A stretch of 64,000 nucleotides of DNA, from contig NZ_MTAV01000121.1 of assembly GCF_002154695.1 (NCBI RefSeq), positions 1 to 64,000 of the forward strand, given 5' to 3'. This stretch comes from Nostoc sp. T09. Lineage in GTDB: Bacteria > Cyanobacteriota > Cyanobacteriia > Cyanobacteriales > Nostocaceae. This document shows positions 37,545 through 44,133 of the stretch, piece by piece (position 1 is the stretch's first letter; each line of letters begins with the position of its first letter). A program made the position numbers and the translations under genes. Under the pieces are notes generated by a model. That model was not told the origin of the DNA. It saw only the letters and a list, made by a program, of their open reading frames with translations, and ran no database searches.

Positions 37545-38573
37545 ATGTCGCCAAAAAACGGGACTAATGAAACTGGGGTTTTGGTTTTAACTTTGGCGAT
37601 TACACTAGGGTTAGTAGGTGGTGTATTTTGGTGGTTGGCTAACAATTCTGGTGTGATCAATAGTTTGACTATTAATCAATCCCGCCCAAATGAAGACACA
37701 TTTACCCAAAAAATAAATGTTCCCTCAGGGTTGTTTAGTTATGGGGGTAGTACAACTTGGGCCCCCATCCGCAAAGAAGTAGACCCAGAAATTCAAAAGC
37801 TTTGGACTAAATATCAATTACGTTACACCGATCCCACTACTGGTGCTCCTGGTTCTGGTACGGGGATTAAAATGCTTTTAGATAACCAGCTGGCTTTTTC
37901 CCAGTCATCTCGCTCCCTTAAAGATGAGGAATACCAGAAGGCAAAACAACGGGGCTTTCAACTAAAAGAAATTCCTGTGGCAATTGATGGGATTGTGATC
38001 GCAGTTAATCCCAAGCTTCAAATTCCGGGTTTAACTCTAGTACAACTTAAAGATATTTACACGGGAAAGGTGACTAACTGGCAACAGGTGAATGGTCCTA
38101 ATTTAGCGATTACACCTTATTCTCGGCGTTTAGAGGAGGGAGGCACGATCGAATTTTTTGATCAAAATATCATGGGAGGAGAAAAATTTAGTACCAATGT
38201 ACAATTTATCCCGACTACAACTCAAGCCTTAAAAGAAGTTGCAAATAATCCCGGGGGAATTTACTATGCCTCTGCCCCGGAAGTCGTTGGACAATGTACT
38301 GTTAAGCCCTTACCACTAGGACGAAAATCCGATCAACTAATTCCGCCTTACAAAGAGCCTTTTATTCCCCTTCAAAACTGTCCGCAACAGCGTAATCAAA
38401 TAAATGCAGCCGCTTTCCAAAAAGGTGAATATCCAATCACTAGACGGTTATTTGTAATTATTAAACAAAATGCACAAAGCGATCAACAAGCAGGAGAAGC
38501 TTACGCTAACTGGCTGCTGACAACTCAAGGTCAGGAATTAATTGTTAAAGCCGGATTTGTCAGAATTCGCTAA
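37545..38573 (+). CDS. PstS-like phosphate-binding protein, membrane-anchored
   Basis: A 342-aa protein with an N-terminal uncleaved membrane helix (about 10-30) and a PBP-like domain: FSYGGSTTWAPIR, GAPGSGTGIKMLLDNQLAFSQ, IPVAIDGIVIAVNP and GGIYYASAPEVV. The Ser/Thr/Gly loops correspond to phosphate-binding loops of PstS. No permease genes are nearby, so it may be a sensor or scavenger rather than transporter component. A Pho box lies just upstream. The next gene is a paralogue 75 bp downstream. Confidence 0.86.
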   Translation: MSPKNGTNETGVLVLTLAITLGLVGGVFWWLANNSGVINSLTINQSRPNEDTFTQKINVPSGLFSYGGSTTWAPIRKEVDPEIQKLWTKYQLRYTDPTTGAPGSGTGIKMLLDNQLAFSQSSRSLKDEEYQKAKQRGFQLKEIPVAIDGIVIAVNPKLQIPGLTLVQLKDIYTGKVTNWQQVNGPNLAITPYSRRLEEGGTIEFFDQNIMGGEKFSTNVQFIPTTTQALKEVANNPGGIYYASAPEVVGQCTVKPLPLGRKSDQLIPPYKEPFIPLQNCPQQRNQINAAAFQKGEYPITRRLFVIIKQNAQSDQQAGEAYANWLLTTQGQELIVKAGFVRIR

Positions 38574-38648: not shown

Positions 38649-39695
38649 ATGTCCCAAAAAAATGAAATACCTATTCTTATCTTGTCTCTAGCAATCACTG
38701 CTGGGCTAATAGCGGGTGGCTTCTGGTGGTTTACCAGAAATTCTGGCTTTAATCTCAATCAAAGTAATTCTACAAACACAAATAACCCCCAAGCTTCAAT
38801 AGAAAAACTTAGCGGTAAAACCTTCATTTCTATAAAAAATGTCCCTACAGGATTATTTAACTACGGAGGCAGCACATCTTGGGCACCAATTCGATTCACA
38901 GTAGATTCAGTAATTACATCAGTGCGCCCAGAGTTTCGCTTGCGTTATGTAGAACCCAGCAAAGCAACTCCTGGTTCTGCTACTGGTATACAATCACTCA
39001 TCGACGGTCAACTAGCCTTTGCTCATTCCTCCAGACCAGTTTTGGATCAAGAGTTGAGCCGTGCCCAGAAGCGTGGCTTTAGTCTCAACCAAATTCCTGT
39101 GGCAATTGATGGATTAGCAGTAGCAGTTAATCCTAGCCTAAATATCCCAGGGTTGACATTGGACCAGATCAAGTCTATTTACACTGGCAAAATTAATAAT
39201 TGGAGTCAAGTGGGTGGTCCTAATATTCCAATCAAGCCTTATTCCCGCCGCATCACCGATGGCGGCACAGTAGAACTTTTTGTCCAAGACATATTGGGTG
39301 GTCAACCTTTTGGATCGCAAGTGGAATTGGTCTCCACAACCACCCAAGCTTTACAAAAATTAGCTGGTAGTCCTGGTGGTATCTATTATGCTTCTGCCCC
39401 AGAGGTGGTTCCTCAATGCTCAATTAAACCCTTGCCGTTGGGGCGGACGCAAGGGAATTACACTGCTCCCTACCAAGAACCATTTGTCCTCCCGAATGAA
39501 TGTCCTGGTAAACGAAACAAATTGAACATTGAGGCTTTTCAATCTGGAAAATACCCGATTACACGCAATCTGTTTGTGGTGGTCAAACAGACTGGTCAAA
39601 TCGAGCAGCAAGCAGGTGTTGCTTATGCCAACTTACTATTAACTGAGCAGGGGCAGGAACTGATTACCCAGGCTGGGTTCGTCAAAATTCGCTGA
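38649..39695 (+). CDS. second PstS-like phosphate-binding protein
   Basis: A 348-aa paralogue of the previous gene with the same order: uncleaved helix (about 8-28), FNYGGSTSWAPIR, PGSATGIQSLIDGQLAFAHS, IPVAIDGLAVAVNP and GGIYYASAPEVVPQ. GSGTG has become GSATG, so ligand contacts differ slightly. There is no separate Pho box in the 75-bp gap, so co-transcription with the first gene is likely. It is convergent with devH, 28 bp away. Confidence 0.86.
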   Translation: MSQKNEIPILILSLAITAGLIAGGFWWFTRNSGFNLNQSNSTNTNNPQASIEKLSGKTFISIKNVPTGLFNYGGSTSWAPIRFTVDSVITSVRPEFRLRYVEPSKATPGSATGIQSLIDGQLAFAHSSRPVLDQELSRAQKRGFSLNQIPVAIDGLAVAVNPSLNIPGLTLDQIKSIYTGKINNWSQVGGPNIPIKPYSRRITDGGTVELFVQDILGGQPFGSQVELVSTTTQALQKLAGSPGGIYYASAPEVVPQCSIKPLPLGRTQGNYTAPYQEPFVLPNECPGKRNKLNIEAFQSGKYPITRNLFVVVKQTGQIEQQAGVAYANLLLTEQGQELITQAGFVKIR

Positions 39696-39723: not shown

Positions 39724-40482
39724 TTAGCTCGCTCTATTAATCGACTCTGCGGGTAAGCAAATTAGATTGTCCCCTTGGGTAAGAATTAAGCCACGTTGAC
39801 GTAACTTGCCCATTAAACGGGTAACGGTAACACGAGTCGAACCGATCGCACTACCAATTTGGGCATGGGTCAGGGGGAAAGGCAGACAATAGCCGCGGAT
39901 AACATCGGGATCGGTTTCGCTCATTGCAGGCTCCCCATATTCCTCAATCAACAAAGTGAGGAATCCTAAGAGTCGGTCAATTGTGCGCCGTTGTCCCAAA
40001 GCACTCAGCCACAGCAACTTACGTTGGTGCTGATATCTAAAAGCATCCATAACTTCGCGACGGAAGTGAGGCCAGTTATCCAAGTCGTGCCAGTACATCC
40101 ACAGCACCGCAGTTTGGTCAACATGGGCGTAAGCCTGGAGTGTGAAAGGTGACTGAGCAACAATTTCAAACGGTTGTCCGGCTCCGACAAAACCCAAGAA
40201 AGCTTCTTCTGGAGTTCTATTGATGCGTCGAGATGTTAGTTGACTGGCAGTAGCGCTGACTTGGGCGGTTCCTACCATACGAATCGCACCCCTTTGCACC
40301 AAATATAGCAATCCAGGTCGAGCTGGAATGCGCTCATCTTTGCTGAAGGTGCGGCAGCGGTAGTGTTCTTGAGCCCAATCAAGAATGCGTTGCCAAGTCA
40401 AAAAAGGACGTGAGGCCTCTGAAAAGGAGGATGGAGATTGCATAGGTAACAAAGAGCGTTCGGCTGAAGACAAAGACGTCAT
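39724..40482 (-). CDS. devH: CRP/FNR-family regulator, DevH-like
   Basis: A protein of about 252 aa with an N-terminal cNMP-binding-like domain (about 30-150) and a CRP-type helix-turn-helix: LTHAQIGSAIGSTRVTVTRL. No complete cNMP-binding signature is visible, so it may not bind cAMP. In Anabaena PCC 7120, devH (alr3952), needed for heterocyst glycolipid layers, lies next to the LysR gene all3953 as I recall; location, strand and length match. An NtcA-type site lies upstream. Start: ATG 40482 or 40494. Confidence 0.75.
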   Translation of the reverse strand: MTSLSSAERSLLPMQSPSSFSEASRPFLTWQRILDWAQEHYRCRTFSKDERIPARPGLLYLVQRGAIRMVGTAQVSATASQLTSRRINRTPEEAFLGFVGAGQPFEIVAQSPFTLQAYAHVDQTAVLWMYWHDLDNWPHFRREVMDAFRYQHQRKLLWLSALGQRRTIDRLLGFLTLLIEEYGEPAMSETDPDVIRGYCLPFPLTHAQIGSAIGSTRVTVTRLMGKLRQRGLILTQGDNLICLPAESINRAS

Positions 40483-40609
40483 AAAAAGGTGCAAGGAGTG
40501 TCTTTGTGTTGGCGAGATAGGCTTAACGCCTAAAAGCGCCAGCCATCCAAAGAATAGAAAGCAAATAACTCTCTACTCTTTTTGTTATACTTCTTACTGT
40601 ACAATGATG

Positions 40610-40703: not shown

Positions 40704-41666
40704 ATGACAGAAAATCAACAAATTGGGGATGAGGCTGTCTTCATCAATAACTACGTGCATTTTCAGCTACTAGTTAGTAAATACACAGCAACTAAGCAGT
40801 TAATATACAGCCGCATAATTAAGTTCCCAAGTGTTTATACCTGTCAGCCAGAAATGCTATGCATAAAAGACAGAAAATTTCCTCTATATAAAGCTAGAGA
40901 TGCAAAAAGGATTTTATATATTTCTGGTATAGCCCTGCGGTTAGAAAAATCTCAGAATCAACAAGCTCTGATTATAGCTAATGAGATAGCCTCAGACTTA
41001 TCGGCGACTTGTGGGGACGTTTTTAGCATCCAAATTGTTCCCCCAGGCTGGATTCATTTAGAATTGACTCACCCAATCTTAGCGGCTTGGTTACAAAATC
41101 TTGCTGTGGGAAGTTTGTTGGGAGGGCGGGATCAAGGTAGAACAAATAATCTTACAATTAAAAATCCACAGCACTTGTTTACTGTGCAATACGCTCATGC
41201 CCGCTGCTGCTCGCTATTGCAGCAGGCTCACCGAGAAGAACTAATTAAACTCAAGGAAGTGCTTTCAGGCACAGAAATAAGTTTTGAGCAGCAACAACCA
41301 CTACTTAGCATTTCCGAGCCAGCTTTTTGGAGTATCTGCTTACCTCAGCCCATACCTTGGCTCAGCAGTGATGCAAAACTTCGCCTAAATCACCCAGCTG
41401 AAAGTCGTTTGATTGGTGAGTTAGTGCAGGTGGTGGATGATTTAGAGTGCAAGACTTTTGGCAGTGCAGTTAATTGGGAAAAAGCCGCGCTGGATTTGAG
41501 TCAAGCTTTTGAAAATTTCTGGAGCGAGTGCCGCATTTGGGGCAAGATAAAAATTACATCCCCACTACTAGCACAAGCAAGACTGGGATTGGTCATGGCT
41601 ACTCAGTCTGTATTAAGGCTGTTACTCAAAGACAAACTAGGGGTTTTTGCTCCTTTAGAGTTATAA
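40704..41666 (+). CDS. ArgRS-derived DALR-domain protein without catalytic core
   Basis: A 320-aa protein. Residues about 85-140 (ALIIANEIASDLSATCGDVF, then VPPGWIHLELTHPILAAWL) look like the N-terminal additional domain of arginyl-tRNA synthetase. Residues about 165-320 (FTVQYAHARCCSLLQQAHRE, ending VLRLLLKDKLGVFAPLEL) are the DALR anticodon-binding domain. The class I Rossmann domain with HIGH and KMSKS is missing. It may bind tRNA without aminoacylating. It is a cyanobacterial family I recognise only by domain. Divergent from devH. Confidence 0.8.
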   Translation: MTENQQIGDEAVFINNYVHFQLLVSKYTATKQLIYSRIIKFPSVYTCQPEMLCIKDRKFPLYKARDAKRILYISGIALRLEKSQNQQALIIANEIASDLSATCGDVFSIQIVPPGWIHLELTHPILAAWLQNLAVGSLLGGRDQGRTNNLTIKNPQHLFTVQYAHARCCSLLQQAHREELIKLKEVLSGTEISFEQQQPLLSISEPAFWSICLPQPIPWLSSDAKLRLNHPAESRLIGELVQVVDDLECKTFGSAVNWEKAALDLSQAFENFWSECRIWGKIKITSPLLAQARLGLVMATQSVLRLLLKDKLGVFAPLEL

Positions 41667-41742: not shown

Positions 41743-41771
41743 TTGACTCAATTAATCACATCGGCTATATT
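41743..41771 (+). promoter_or_regulatory. near-consensus sigma-70 type promoter
   Basis: TTGACT (41743-41748), a 17-bp spacer, and TATATT (41766-41771). No open frame follows, only the structured region 41777-41847, so the promoter most likely drives a non-coding RNA. Confidence 0.7.
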
Positions 41772-41776
41772 ATCAG

Positions 41777-41847
41777 GTGTGTGAGGAGCGAACCAGCAGG
41801 GGCACCGAGACGAAACACGGCCAGTCGTCGGTGTCCTTTCTGATTTT
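41777..41847 (+). ncRNA. candidate small RNA (possibly Yfr2-like)
   Basis: It starts about 6 nt after the -10 box at 41766-41771. A nine-bp stem pairs 41800-41808 with 41828-41836 (one G-U), with an inner three-bp stem and the loop GAAACACGGCCA. The 3' side continues TTTCTGATTTT, a weak U tract. The first part is purine-rich (GGTGTGTGAGGAGCGAACC). The size and the GAAACA-bearing loop recall the Yfr2 family, but this is from memory and untested. It lies between convergent genes. Confidence 0.6.
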
Positions 41848-41874
41848 ATATAGGGCAAATTGTTTGGATCAGCC

Positions 41875-42750
41875 CTAAGATAGTAAAAATTGTTCAATTG
41901 CTACTGCGGCTCCATCTTCCTCTACAGTAGGAGCTACCCATTGAGCGATCGCTTGCACTGCTGCTGGCGCATTCCCCATAGCTATACCAACGCCAGCATA
42001 CTCTAGCATTTCTAAATCATTGAAGTTATCACCAATAGTCATAACGTTAGTACTTTGCAATCCCAATAGTTCTTCTGCTAGATAACGCACAGCAGTTCCT
42101 TTGTTTACAGAGGCGTTAGTCGCTTCAAAAAAGGTGGCAACAGATGTTGTCAGGTAAAGTTCAGCAGGTGTATATTGGCGGCGCAAATTTCCTAATATCT
42201 TGTCGATCACATCGGTGTCATCACACAAAGCCAGAACTTTTGTTGGTTCATGATTTAAAGCTTGGCGCAAATCACCTACAGGAATCGCGGTGATGCCAGA
42301 ACGTTCTGCGTAGATTTTGGTTTCTCTTGTTAATTCCCGCACATAAAGTTGGTCGTTGATATAGAAATGAACAGATAAGAGCGATCGCAACTGTGGTTGT
42401 TCAAAATAGTCTAGTAACTGGGATGCAATCTCTCTAGAAACAGTCAAATGGCGATGAATCTTCTGAGTAGCTGGGTCTTGAATCCAGGCTCCCTGATATG
42501 CTGCTAAGGGTAAAACAGAGCTAATTTCTTGGTGAAAGCGCAAAGCTGAACGATACATTCTACCAGTAGCGATCGCTACTTGAATTCCTCGCGCTTGTGC
42601 TGCGGCGATCGCTTGCTTTACGGGTTTGCTAATAGTGTTAGACTTTCCTGAAATTGTGCCGTCTATATCTAAAACCAGTAGTTTAATTTCTTCTGTAGCT
42701 ATTGCTGGATTGCCAGTTGATGCAAAATGAGTAGCAGCTGCTTTATTCAT
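41875..42750 (-). CDS. Cof-type HAD-IIB phosphatase
   Basis: A 291-aa HAD hydrolase: motif I LVLDIDGTISGKSNTIS (nucleophile Asp and general acid Asp), motif II in VAIATGR, motif III Lys in ASVNKGTAV, motif IV IGDNFNDLEMLEYAGVGIAM. The cap between motifs II and III is the large IIB type. Substrates are usually sugar phosphates or flavin/PLP phosphates; no specific one is evident. Confidence 0.9.
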   Translation of the reverse strand: MNKAAATHFASTGNPAIATEEIKLLVLDIDGTISGKSNTISKPVKQAIAAAQARGIQVAIATGRMYRSALRFHQEISSVLPLAAYQGAWIQDPATQKIHRHLTVSREIASQLLDYFEQPQLRSLLSVHFYINDQLYVRELTRETKIYAERSGITAIPVGDLRQALNHEPTKVLALCDDTDVIDKILGNLRRQYTPAELYLTTSVATFFEATNASVNKGTAVRYLAEELLGLQSTNVMTIGDNFNDLEMLEYAGVGIAMGNAPAAVQAIAQWVAPTVEEDGAAVAIEQFLLS

Positions 42751-42833: not shown

Positions 42834-42864
42834 GCAAAAACCCGGATTAATTGAAATCCGGGTT
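42834..42864 (-). terminator. terminator after the PEP-CTERM gene
   Basis: Ten-base perfect arms (AACCCGGATT at 42839-42848 and AATCCGGGTT at 42855-42864). On the minus strand the stem ends in a T5 run. It lies about 165 bp past the PEP-CTERM stop. Confidence 0.8.
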
Positions 42865-43030
42865 CTATATATAGCCAACTGTCAAAAACATCTGCAAAAA
42901 CAGTAATACTTAACCAATATAAAACTGGTAGTATATATCAGCTATTATGTCATCATTTGCAATGACTAACGATAGCATCAACTTGTTAATTTCTCTGGCG
43001 ACAACGTAAACTCCGCCATTGACAGAAGGT

Positions 43031-43738
43031 CTAAAAAGTTGACATCTTGAGTCGGGTTTTCTTGCTTTTTGACAACATACCAATTCCTGCAATTAAGCCA
43101 AGCCCAAGAGCAGCAGATGGTTCAGGTACAGACTTCAATTCATCATAGTCATACGTGACTTTTATAGCTGCTTTGGCTTCTGTGGTGATGGAGGAAATCA
43201 TGTTACCTGATCCTGTAACCCCTGATTGGGCTAAAGCTGAGAATAAGAATTCCAGGTTACCACCACCAATAAAAGACTGCAAAAATTGGCTATCAGTATA
43301 GGTTTTTGTATCAGATTGTGAAGCTGACAATCCCGTAACACTTTGTCCAGAAGTTCCGCCAAAATCTAGAGTGCCGTCAGATGCACCAACTTGGTAATTA
43401 AAGGAATTTTGGGGATTGAGAGCAAACAAAGACTGATTATTTAGTTTTAAGCCTAGGTTACTAGCAAGATTGACTGTTACTGGAGTTGAACTGGGACTAA
43501 GATTTTCAAATCTTGCTGTTCCCAATAAGTCCCCAGCAAATTCTATTTTTACACTCTTGAGCGTACCAAGAGAGGCATCAAACTTTTGAACACTAAGAGG
43601 TGAATCAATGATATTTGTTAGCCCAAATCCTGTGGAACTTGAACTAGTGAGAGAAGCTGCATTAGCCACTCCACTTGTAGCGACAATACCTGCGAAGGTT
43701 GTAGCAGTAGCTAAAGCCTGGAAAAATTTGGAATTCAT
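43031..43738 (-). CDS. secreted PEP-CTERM protein
   Basis: A 235-aa exported protein. A signal peptide (FFQALATATTFAGIVATSGV, cleavage after ANA) opens it. The C terminus has the sorting tag VPEPSAALGLGLIAGIG, a membrane helix, then basic KSKKTR, as recognised by exosortase-type systems. The central region is Ser/Thr/Gly-rich beta structure with no named domain. I choose ATG 43738 so that the signal peptide is at the N terminus; the frame is open to 43780. Confidence 0.85.
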   Translation of the reverse strand: MNSKFFQALATATTFAGIVATSGVANAASLTSSSSTGFGLTNIIDSPLSVQKFDASLGTLKSVKIEFAGDLLGTARFENLSPSSTPVTVNLASNLGLKLNNQSLFALNPQNSFNYQVGASDGTLDFGGTSGQSVTGLSASQSDTKTYTDSQFLQSFIGGGNLEFLFSALAQSGVTGSGNMISSITTEAKAAIKVTYDYDELKSVPEPSAALGLGLIAGIGMLSKSKKTRLKMSTF

Positions 43739-44133
43739 AGACTGATTATTTTCTGAAACTATGATTGCGATATTCCTCATCTATTTCTAACTTTGAAATA
43801 TTACTTTTAGCTTTGTTAAATATACTTAATTTTATATGAATGTTTTATGAAGTAAAAAGTGGAAAATAATTATTTCCCTCTTAAAAAGCTATTTGTTTAA
43901 ACTTTCATGAGTAGAGCTAGCTTGAAAGTCAAAAGTTAGAATTGTACAGTCTTTTCATAACTACGGATCTTCAGTACTGAAACAGTAAGTAGTTCTGAGA
44001 AGGGTTTCCCTTTGTAAGAAACTGCGGTAGGGTATTTTGACCAGTACACAGCAATACTAGTAATAATTATGATGCTGAAGCTGCGTCGCTGTTACCTAGT
44101 TCCGAGATGTAAGCTTCTGGCTAAAATAAGGCT
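43739..44133. other. divergent promoter region of PEP-CTERM gene and polA
   Basis: About 395 bp of AT-rich DNA. It should hold both promoters, but I cannot place paired -35 and -10 boxes with confidence. No gene or repeat is supported. Confidence 0.4.

Follow-up and report, generated by a model that had tools for sequence, protein, structure and literature searches.

A Yfr2-type small RNA gene in Nostoc sp. T09, the subgroup behind it and its likely pairing with Yfr1

The window analysed here, a stretch of 64,000 nucleotides of Nostoc sp. T09 DNA (contig NZ_MTAV01000121.1), contains between two convergent genes a promoter-like sequence followed by a potentially structured segment, raising the question of whether a small RNA is encoded there and, if so, whether it belongs to the Yfr2 family or to a new one, alternatives that the original prediction had left side by side. 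Very few small RNAs are preserved across nearly all cyanobacteria; Yfr1 and Yfr2 are two of them. The Yfr2 family comprises Yfr2a-c of Synechocystis and Yfr2-5 of Prochlorococcus and is represented in Rfam by RF01701 (Cyano-1). As judged from its sequence, the RNA predicted at this locus is a genuine member of this already known family, and an under-described subgroup stands behind it. The strongest evidence is the complementarity of its 5' tail to Yfr1 together with the conservation of promoter, element and gene neighbourhood across cyanobacteria. The features of the locus are compiled in Table 1.

Table 1. Features of the small RNA locus and its flanking genes (positions in the window).
Feature	Position	Strand	Basis or remarks
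DALR anticodon-binding-domain protein gene	40704..41666	+	PF05746, E 1.7e-9
Promoter TTGACT, 17-nt spacer, TATATT	41743..41771	+	conserved in relatives
Predicted Yfr2-type small RNA	41776..41850	+	RF01701 and R1 matches; approximate ends
5' tail GUGUGAGGAG	41779..41788	+	invariant in 40 distinct aligned relatives
Tail-Yfr1 complementarity	41779..41788	+	GUGUGAGGAG complementary to Yfr1 core CUCCUCACAC
Subgroup-specific spacer CGAACCAG	41789..41796	+	its CAG builds the lower stem
Main hairpin, 14 bp with bulged G41827	41798..41838	+	fold and compensatory changes
12-nt terminal loop GAAACACGGCCA	41812..41823	+	fold, alignment
Cof-type HAD-IIB hydrolase gene	41875..42750	-	TIGR00099, E 5.9e-55; PF08282

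Architecture and family assignment of the RNA

The RF01701 model matches positions 41775-41844 from end to end with 35.9 bits (E 8.8e-5), a score under the curated cut-off of 41 bits set by the Rfam library, so that the automatic Cyano-1 label is not reached; at gathering threshold no Rfam family was matched anywhere in the window. The covariance search that had been proposed as a check thus returned a full-length match at a low E value, though one below the curated cut-off. Weak Rfam matches such as SNORD111, snoZ159 and mir-1290 (E about 3-5) were dismissed as chance, a scan for tRNA and tmRNA genes found none, and a literature search for the sequence of the element retrieved nothing specific. 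The names Cyano-1 and Yfr2 are connected in PMC8400943.

Voss et al. (2009; PMC2662882) characterised Yfr2 RNAs by a 5' stretch that is unpaired and extremely conserved, by a long stem bearing a 12-nt loop and by a bulge four positions from that loop (-4); all three hallmarks are present here. The tail begins seven bases past TATATT and is followed by the spacer and then by the hairpin; it lies outside the conserved structure and corresponds to the conserved unpaired 5' end of 8-13 nt (GUGUGAGGA) of the family. In the hairpin, A41798-C41811 pair with G41824-U41838 (14 pairs) beneath the 12-nt loop, and G41827 stays unpaired after the three closing pairs, four positions from the loop, both in the fold and in the consensus. 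Underneath, CAG 41794-96 and CUG 41840-42 form a lower stem of 3 bp. The stem that the original prediction had put at 9 bp is therefore real but larger, whereas the loop closing the hairpin is of the GAAACA type, as announced. The description of a structured, non-coding stretch also holds, since the hairpin segment folds better than 200 of 200 dinucleotide shuffles (z -4.5) and no start codon was seen at a suitable distance after GAGGAG when the sequence was read by eye.

Compensatory changes in the stem, which had been named as a further check, were found among 40 distinct relatives, where changes on both sides occur at 7 of the 17 stem pairs. In these sequences 98.2% of the cells are paired in the proposed structure, and both-side changes were counted in 49 cells, against 13.3 in shuffles and 11 in the best slid control. 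The same hairpin was obtained independently with RNAalifold.

The same genome carries two further Yfr2 RNAs, C52:27723-27798 (58 bits) and C94:7450-7524 (57 bits), both over the RF01701 cut-off, the window element being the third-best match; a fourth one (C97, 22.3 bits) has no loop and was dropped. The C52 and C94 copies share tail, loop and bulge with the window element and differ from it in the spacer (CAAGUU...), the stem and the upstream sequence. That the RNA founds a new family unrelated to Yfr2, as its score under the Rfam cut-off and the empty result at gathering threshold could be taken to indicate, is exceedingly improbable: the match is end to end at a low E value, every published structural feature of Yfr2 was found, tail, loop and bulge recur in the paralogues, and the architecture already contradicts it. 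Of the two alternatives initially offered, the end-to-end match and the covarying stem support the Yfr2 one.

Promoter, predicted transcript ends and gene neighbourhood

The promoter lies exactly where it had been predicted (TTGACT at 41743-41748, TATATT at 41766-41771). Taken alone, such a pair is at chance level in this AT-rich DNA, with one site found against 0.8 +/- 1.0 expected from shuffles of the region; its significance derives from its conservation across related loci and not from the sequence match as such. A -35/-10 pair with at least 9 of 12 consensus positions stands just before the tail in 70 of 71 related loci, vs 3.4% of shuffled upstream sequences. Of 170 distinct upstream regions, 164 read TGAC at the -35 place, compared with 8 at a control place. 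An A-tract/T-tract element (consensus AAAA-N-TTTT, often TTTTGTAA) adjoins the -35 box on its upstream side in many subgroup loci, about 50-58 nt ahead of GUGUGAGGAG; it is weak in the window itself and might serve as an UP element or bind a regulator.

Judging from the -10 box, the RNA would start at about 41776-41779, and its 3' end probably falls at about 41843-41853, where no clear terminator-like site was found. A strong hairpin located between convergent genes could in principle be merely a transcription terminator or the hairpin of a 3' UTR. This explanation is very improbable given the lack of a terminator-like site, the conserved promoter directly ahead of the element and the conservation of its 5' tail and loop; moreover, the element is kept at loci in which only one neighbour, or neither, was recognised.

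The convergent arrangement of the flanking genes was confirmed and recurs in other cyanobacteria. When 66 relatives with sufficiently long flanks were compared, the DALR gene preceded the element on the same strand in 56 of them, the HAD hydrolase gene lay downstream and convergent in 55, and both were present in 49; in a second set (66 loci from named records with enough flank) the respective counts were 40, 36 and 29. Previous reports describe yfr2 genes as occupying unconserved loci (PMC6778093) and note their lack of synteny (PMC2662882). The conserved place of the subgroup is a real departure from the published accounts of yfr2 genes, for which no priority is claimed.

Several observations concern the surrounding DNA. 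Two adjacent and similar genes on the plus strand (37545-38573 and 38649-39695; only the first was scanned with Pfam) encode phosphate-binding-protein-like products of the PBP superfamily and apparently represent a tandem duplication. They are followed on the minus strand by a gene for a Crp-family transcription regulator (39724-40494) with a C-terminal Crp helix-turn-helix and an N-terminal half lacking a Pfam match. Beyond the HAD gene, a minus-strand gene (43031-43780) encodes a protein without Pfam match whose C-terminal VPEPSAALGLGLIAGIGMLSKSKK resembles a PEP-CTERM sorting tail, and between both genes, at about 42839-42866, AACCCGGATTAATTGAAATCCGGGTT forms a perfect-looking hairpin that is possibly a terminator.

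A Yfr2 subgroup at or below the Rfam cut-off

In most of 58 related genomes, strong Cyano-1 matches are accompanied by an RF01701 match of 68-70 nt scoring 33-42 bits. These weaker matches form one subgroup together with the window element, with the common pattern GUGUGAGGAG-CGAACCAG-...-ACCGAGAC-GAAACACGGCCA-GUC-G-UCGGU... Most members score at or below the 41-bit cut-off, which therefore misses the greater part of the subgroup. In 118 loci from named records, GTGTGAGGAGCGAAC and the unpaired 5' tail form GUGUGAGGAGCGAAC were each present in 111. The conserved spacer distinguishes these RNAs from the family as described, in which the stretch between tail and stem is not conserved, and so does their usual occurrence as one copy at a conserved place, yfr2 genes having been described as multicopy and scattered over unconserved loci. 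Shared with the family are the unpaired 5' GUGUGAGGAG, the long stem, the 12-nt GAAACA-type loop, the -4 bulge, a predicted promoter of their own and the complementarity to Yfr1.

A subgroup model (R1) was built from the group sequences and applied to a phylum sample of 292 genomes. It matches the window element at 41779-41848 with 98.1 bits, compared with 46 and 44 bits for the C52 and C94 copies, respectively, and separates the groups cleanly in the sample, subgroup members scoring 69-103 bits and other Yfr2 RNAs 56 or less. The subgroup is carried by 86 of the 292 genomes (88 copies, usually one each). Yfr1 was found in 135 genomes, and a Yfr1 hit is present in every subgroup genome but one. 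Within family f36, whose genomes of 1.6-3.7 Mb presumably belong to marine and related picocyanobacteria, the R1 search of the phylum sample found the subgroup in no genome; outside this family, 85 of the 103 genomes with Yfr1 carry it.

Nostoc, Calothrix, Oscillatoria, Leptolyngbya, a Thermosynechococcus and a Gloeomargarita assembly are among the named carriers, a breadth which suggests that the subgroup is of very old origin. It may tentatively be proposed, as a possibility that we rate somewhat short of probable, that the subgroup represents a distinct orthologous lineage within Yfr2, dating back almost to the root of the photosynthetic cyanobacteria, usually single-copy, flanked by the DALR and HAD genes, lost in picocyanobacteria and under-annotated because its scores fall below the Rfam cut-off, and that its GCGAAC extension would make it the dedicated Yfr1 sponge, leaving other roles to the mobile multicopy Yfr2 RNAs. 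In most non-picocyanobacterial genomes the orthologue can be identified by position and sequence, which provides one gene that is comparable across species; the Cyano-1 cut-off conceals a whole subgroup.

One locus (L055, G049:C1:3583457-3583703) contains two tandem copies of the subgroup RNA with different loop letters. A contig labelled Candidatus Gracilibacteria bacterium (L247) also carries the RNA and is probably mis-binned. Viral contigs contained no exact match to the core.

Predicted pairing with Yfr1 and likely function

Yfr1 covers ribosome-binding sites with its CUCCUCACAC motif. Yfr1 (RF01116) and the Yfr10-like RNAs belong to the same circuit as the RNA described here and carry the opposite strand of the motif, which makes the window RNA their antisense partner and not a homologue. 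The genome of Nostoc sp. T09 contains a single Yfr1 (61.9 bits with RF01116), and its motif forms 10 contiguous pairs with the tail, the complementarity to Yfr1 expected of Yfr2. Computed as co-fold minus separate folds, the interaction between the RNA and Yfr1 amounts to -21.6 kcal/mol, a value reached by 0 of 500 dinucleotide shuffles in which the whole RNA was randomised and by 0 of 500 shuffles of the tail. RNAduplex, applied to the whole molecules with mononucleotide shuffles, was uninformative because it ignores the folding of each RNA on itself.

After one mismatch, the GAAC of the spacer could add four pairs with GUUC of Yfr1. For the isolated segments, this corresponds to -25.7 kcal/mol vs -20.5 for the two other Yfr2 copies of the genome; once the cost of opening the stem of Yfr1 is included the values become -21.6 vs -20.4 kcal/mol, a net gain of only about 1.2 which makes the functional weight of the extension uncertain. 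Covariation between GUU of Yfr1 and GAAC of the subgroup was also considered. Nearly every Yfr1 read among the relatives contains GUUCACUCCUCACAC, and in the two genomes whose Yfr1 has GCUC, the tails (CAAAC in G056, degenerate in G046) do not restore pairing, so that covariation finds no support.

In Prochlorococcus, Yfr2 was reported to pair with Yfr1, sequestering it and blocking its action (PMC6778093), and gel shifts showed binding of Yfr1 by a Nostoc Yfr2, whose level increases under nitrogen deprivation (PMC6974561). Altogether, the locus can with good confidence be regarded as a stand-alone gene for a Yfr2-family small RNA whose chief role is most likely pairing with Yfr1 through its tail. 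Against this reading speak the RF01701 score under the cut-off and a 3' end at which a clear intrinsic terminator was not found. According to the proposed mechanism, its own sigma-70 promoter would drive a transcript about 70 nt long, made up of an unpaired 5' tail and one bulged hairpin with a 12-nt loop; the tail would pair with the motif of Yfr1, and of Yfr10-like RNAs, and the occupied Yfr1 would leave its target mRNAs free, as the paired motif is the same that Yfr1 uses on ribosome-binding sites. An antisense sponge of Yfr1 is thus the most likely function of this RNA; that it is transcribed at this size, binds Yfr1 in the cell and acts on the targets we infer from published work on relatives.

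Among relatives, hardly any change is seen in the loop and upper stem (ACCGAGACGAAACACGGCCAGUCGUCGGU), a stricter conservation than a sponge alone would need. Many other targets of Yfr2 have been published, and its main partner may not be Yfr1. The main function could instead reside in the loop and bulge, which would bind other mRNAs or a protein, and Yfr1 would then pair with the RNA chiefly to turn it off. Consistent with this, Prochlorococcus Yfr2 pulled down 302 mRNAs and could be neutralised by Yfr1/10 (PMC6778093), and both the bulge and GGA motifs in unpaired regions have been suggested as potential binding sites for proteins (PMC2662882). However, the 5' tail is conserved at least as much as the loop and upper stem, the subgroup tail extends into a spacer that improves pairing with Yfr1, and a target of the loop was not identified; this alternative is regarded as rather unlikely, and pairing with Yfr1 remains the preferred function.

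Close to Yfr1 at one locus (L193, G014:C13:10251-10716), a second CUCCUCACAC was observed in reverse orientation on the minus strand near position 379, which could be a Yfr10-like RNA or chance.
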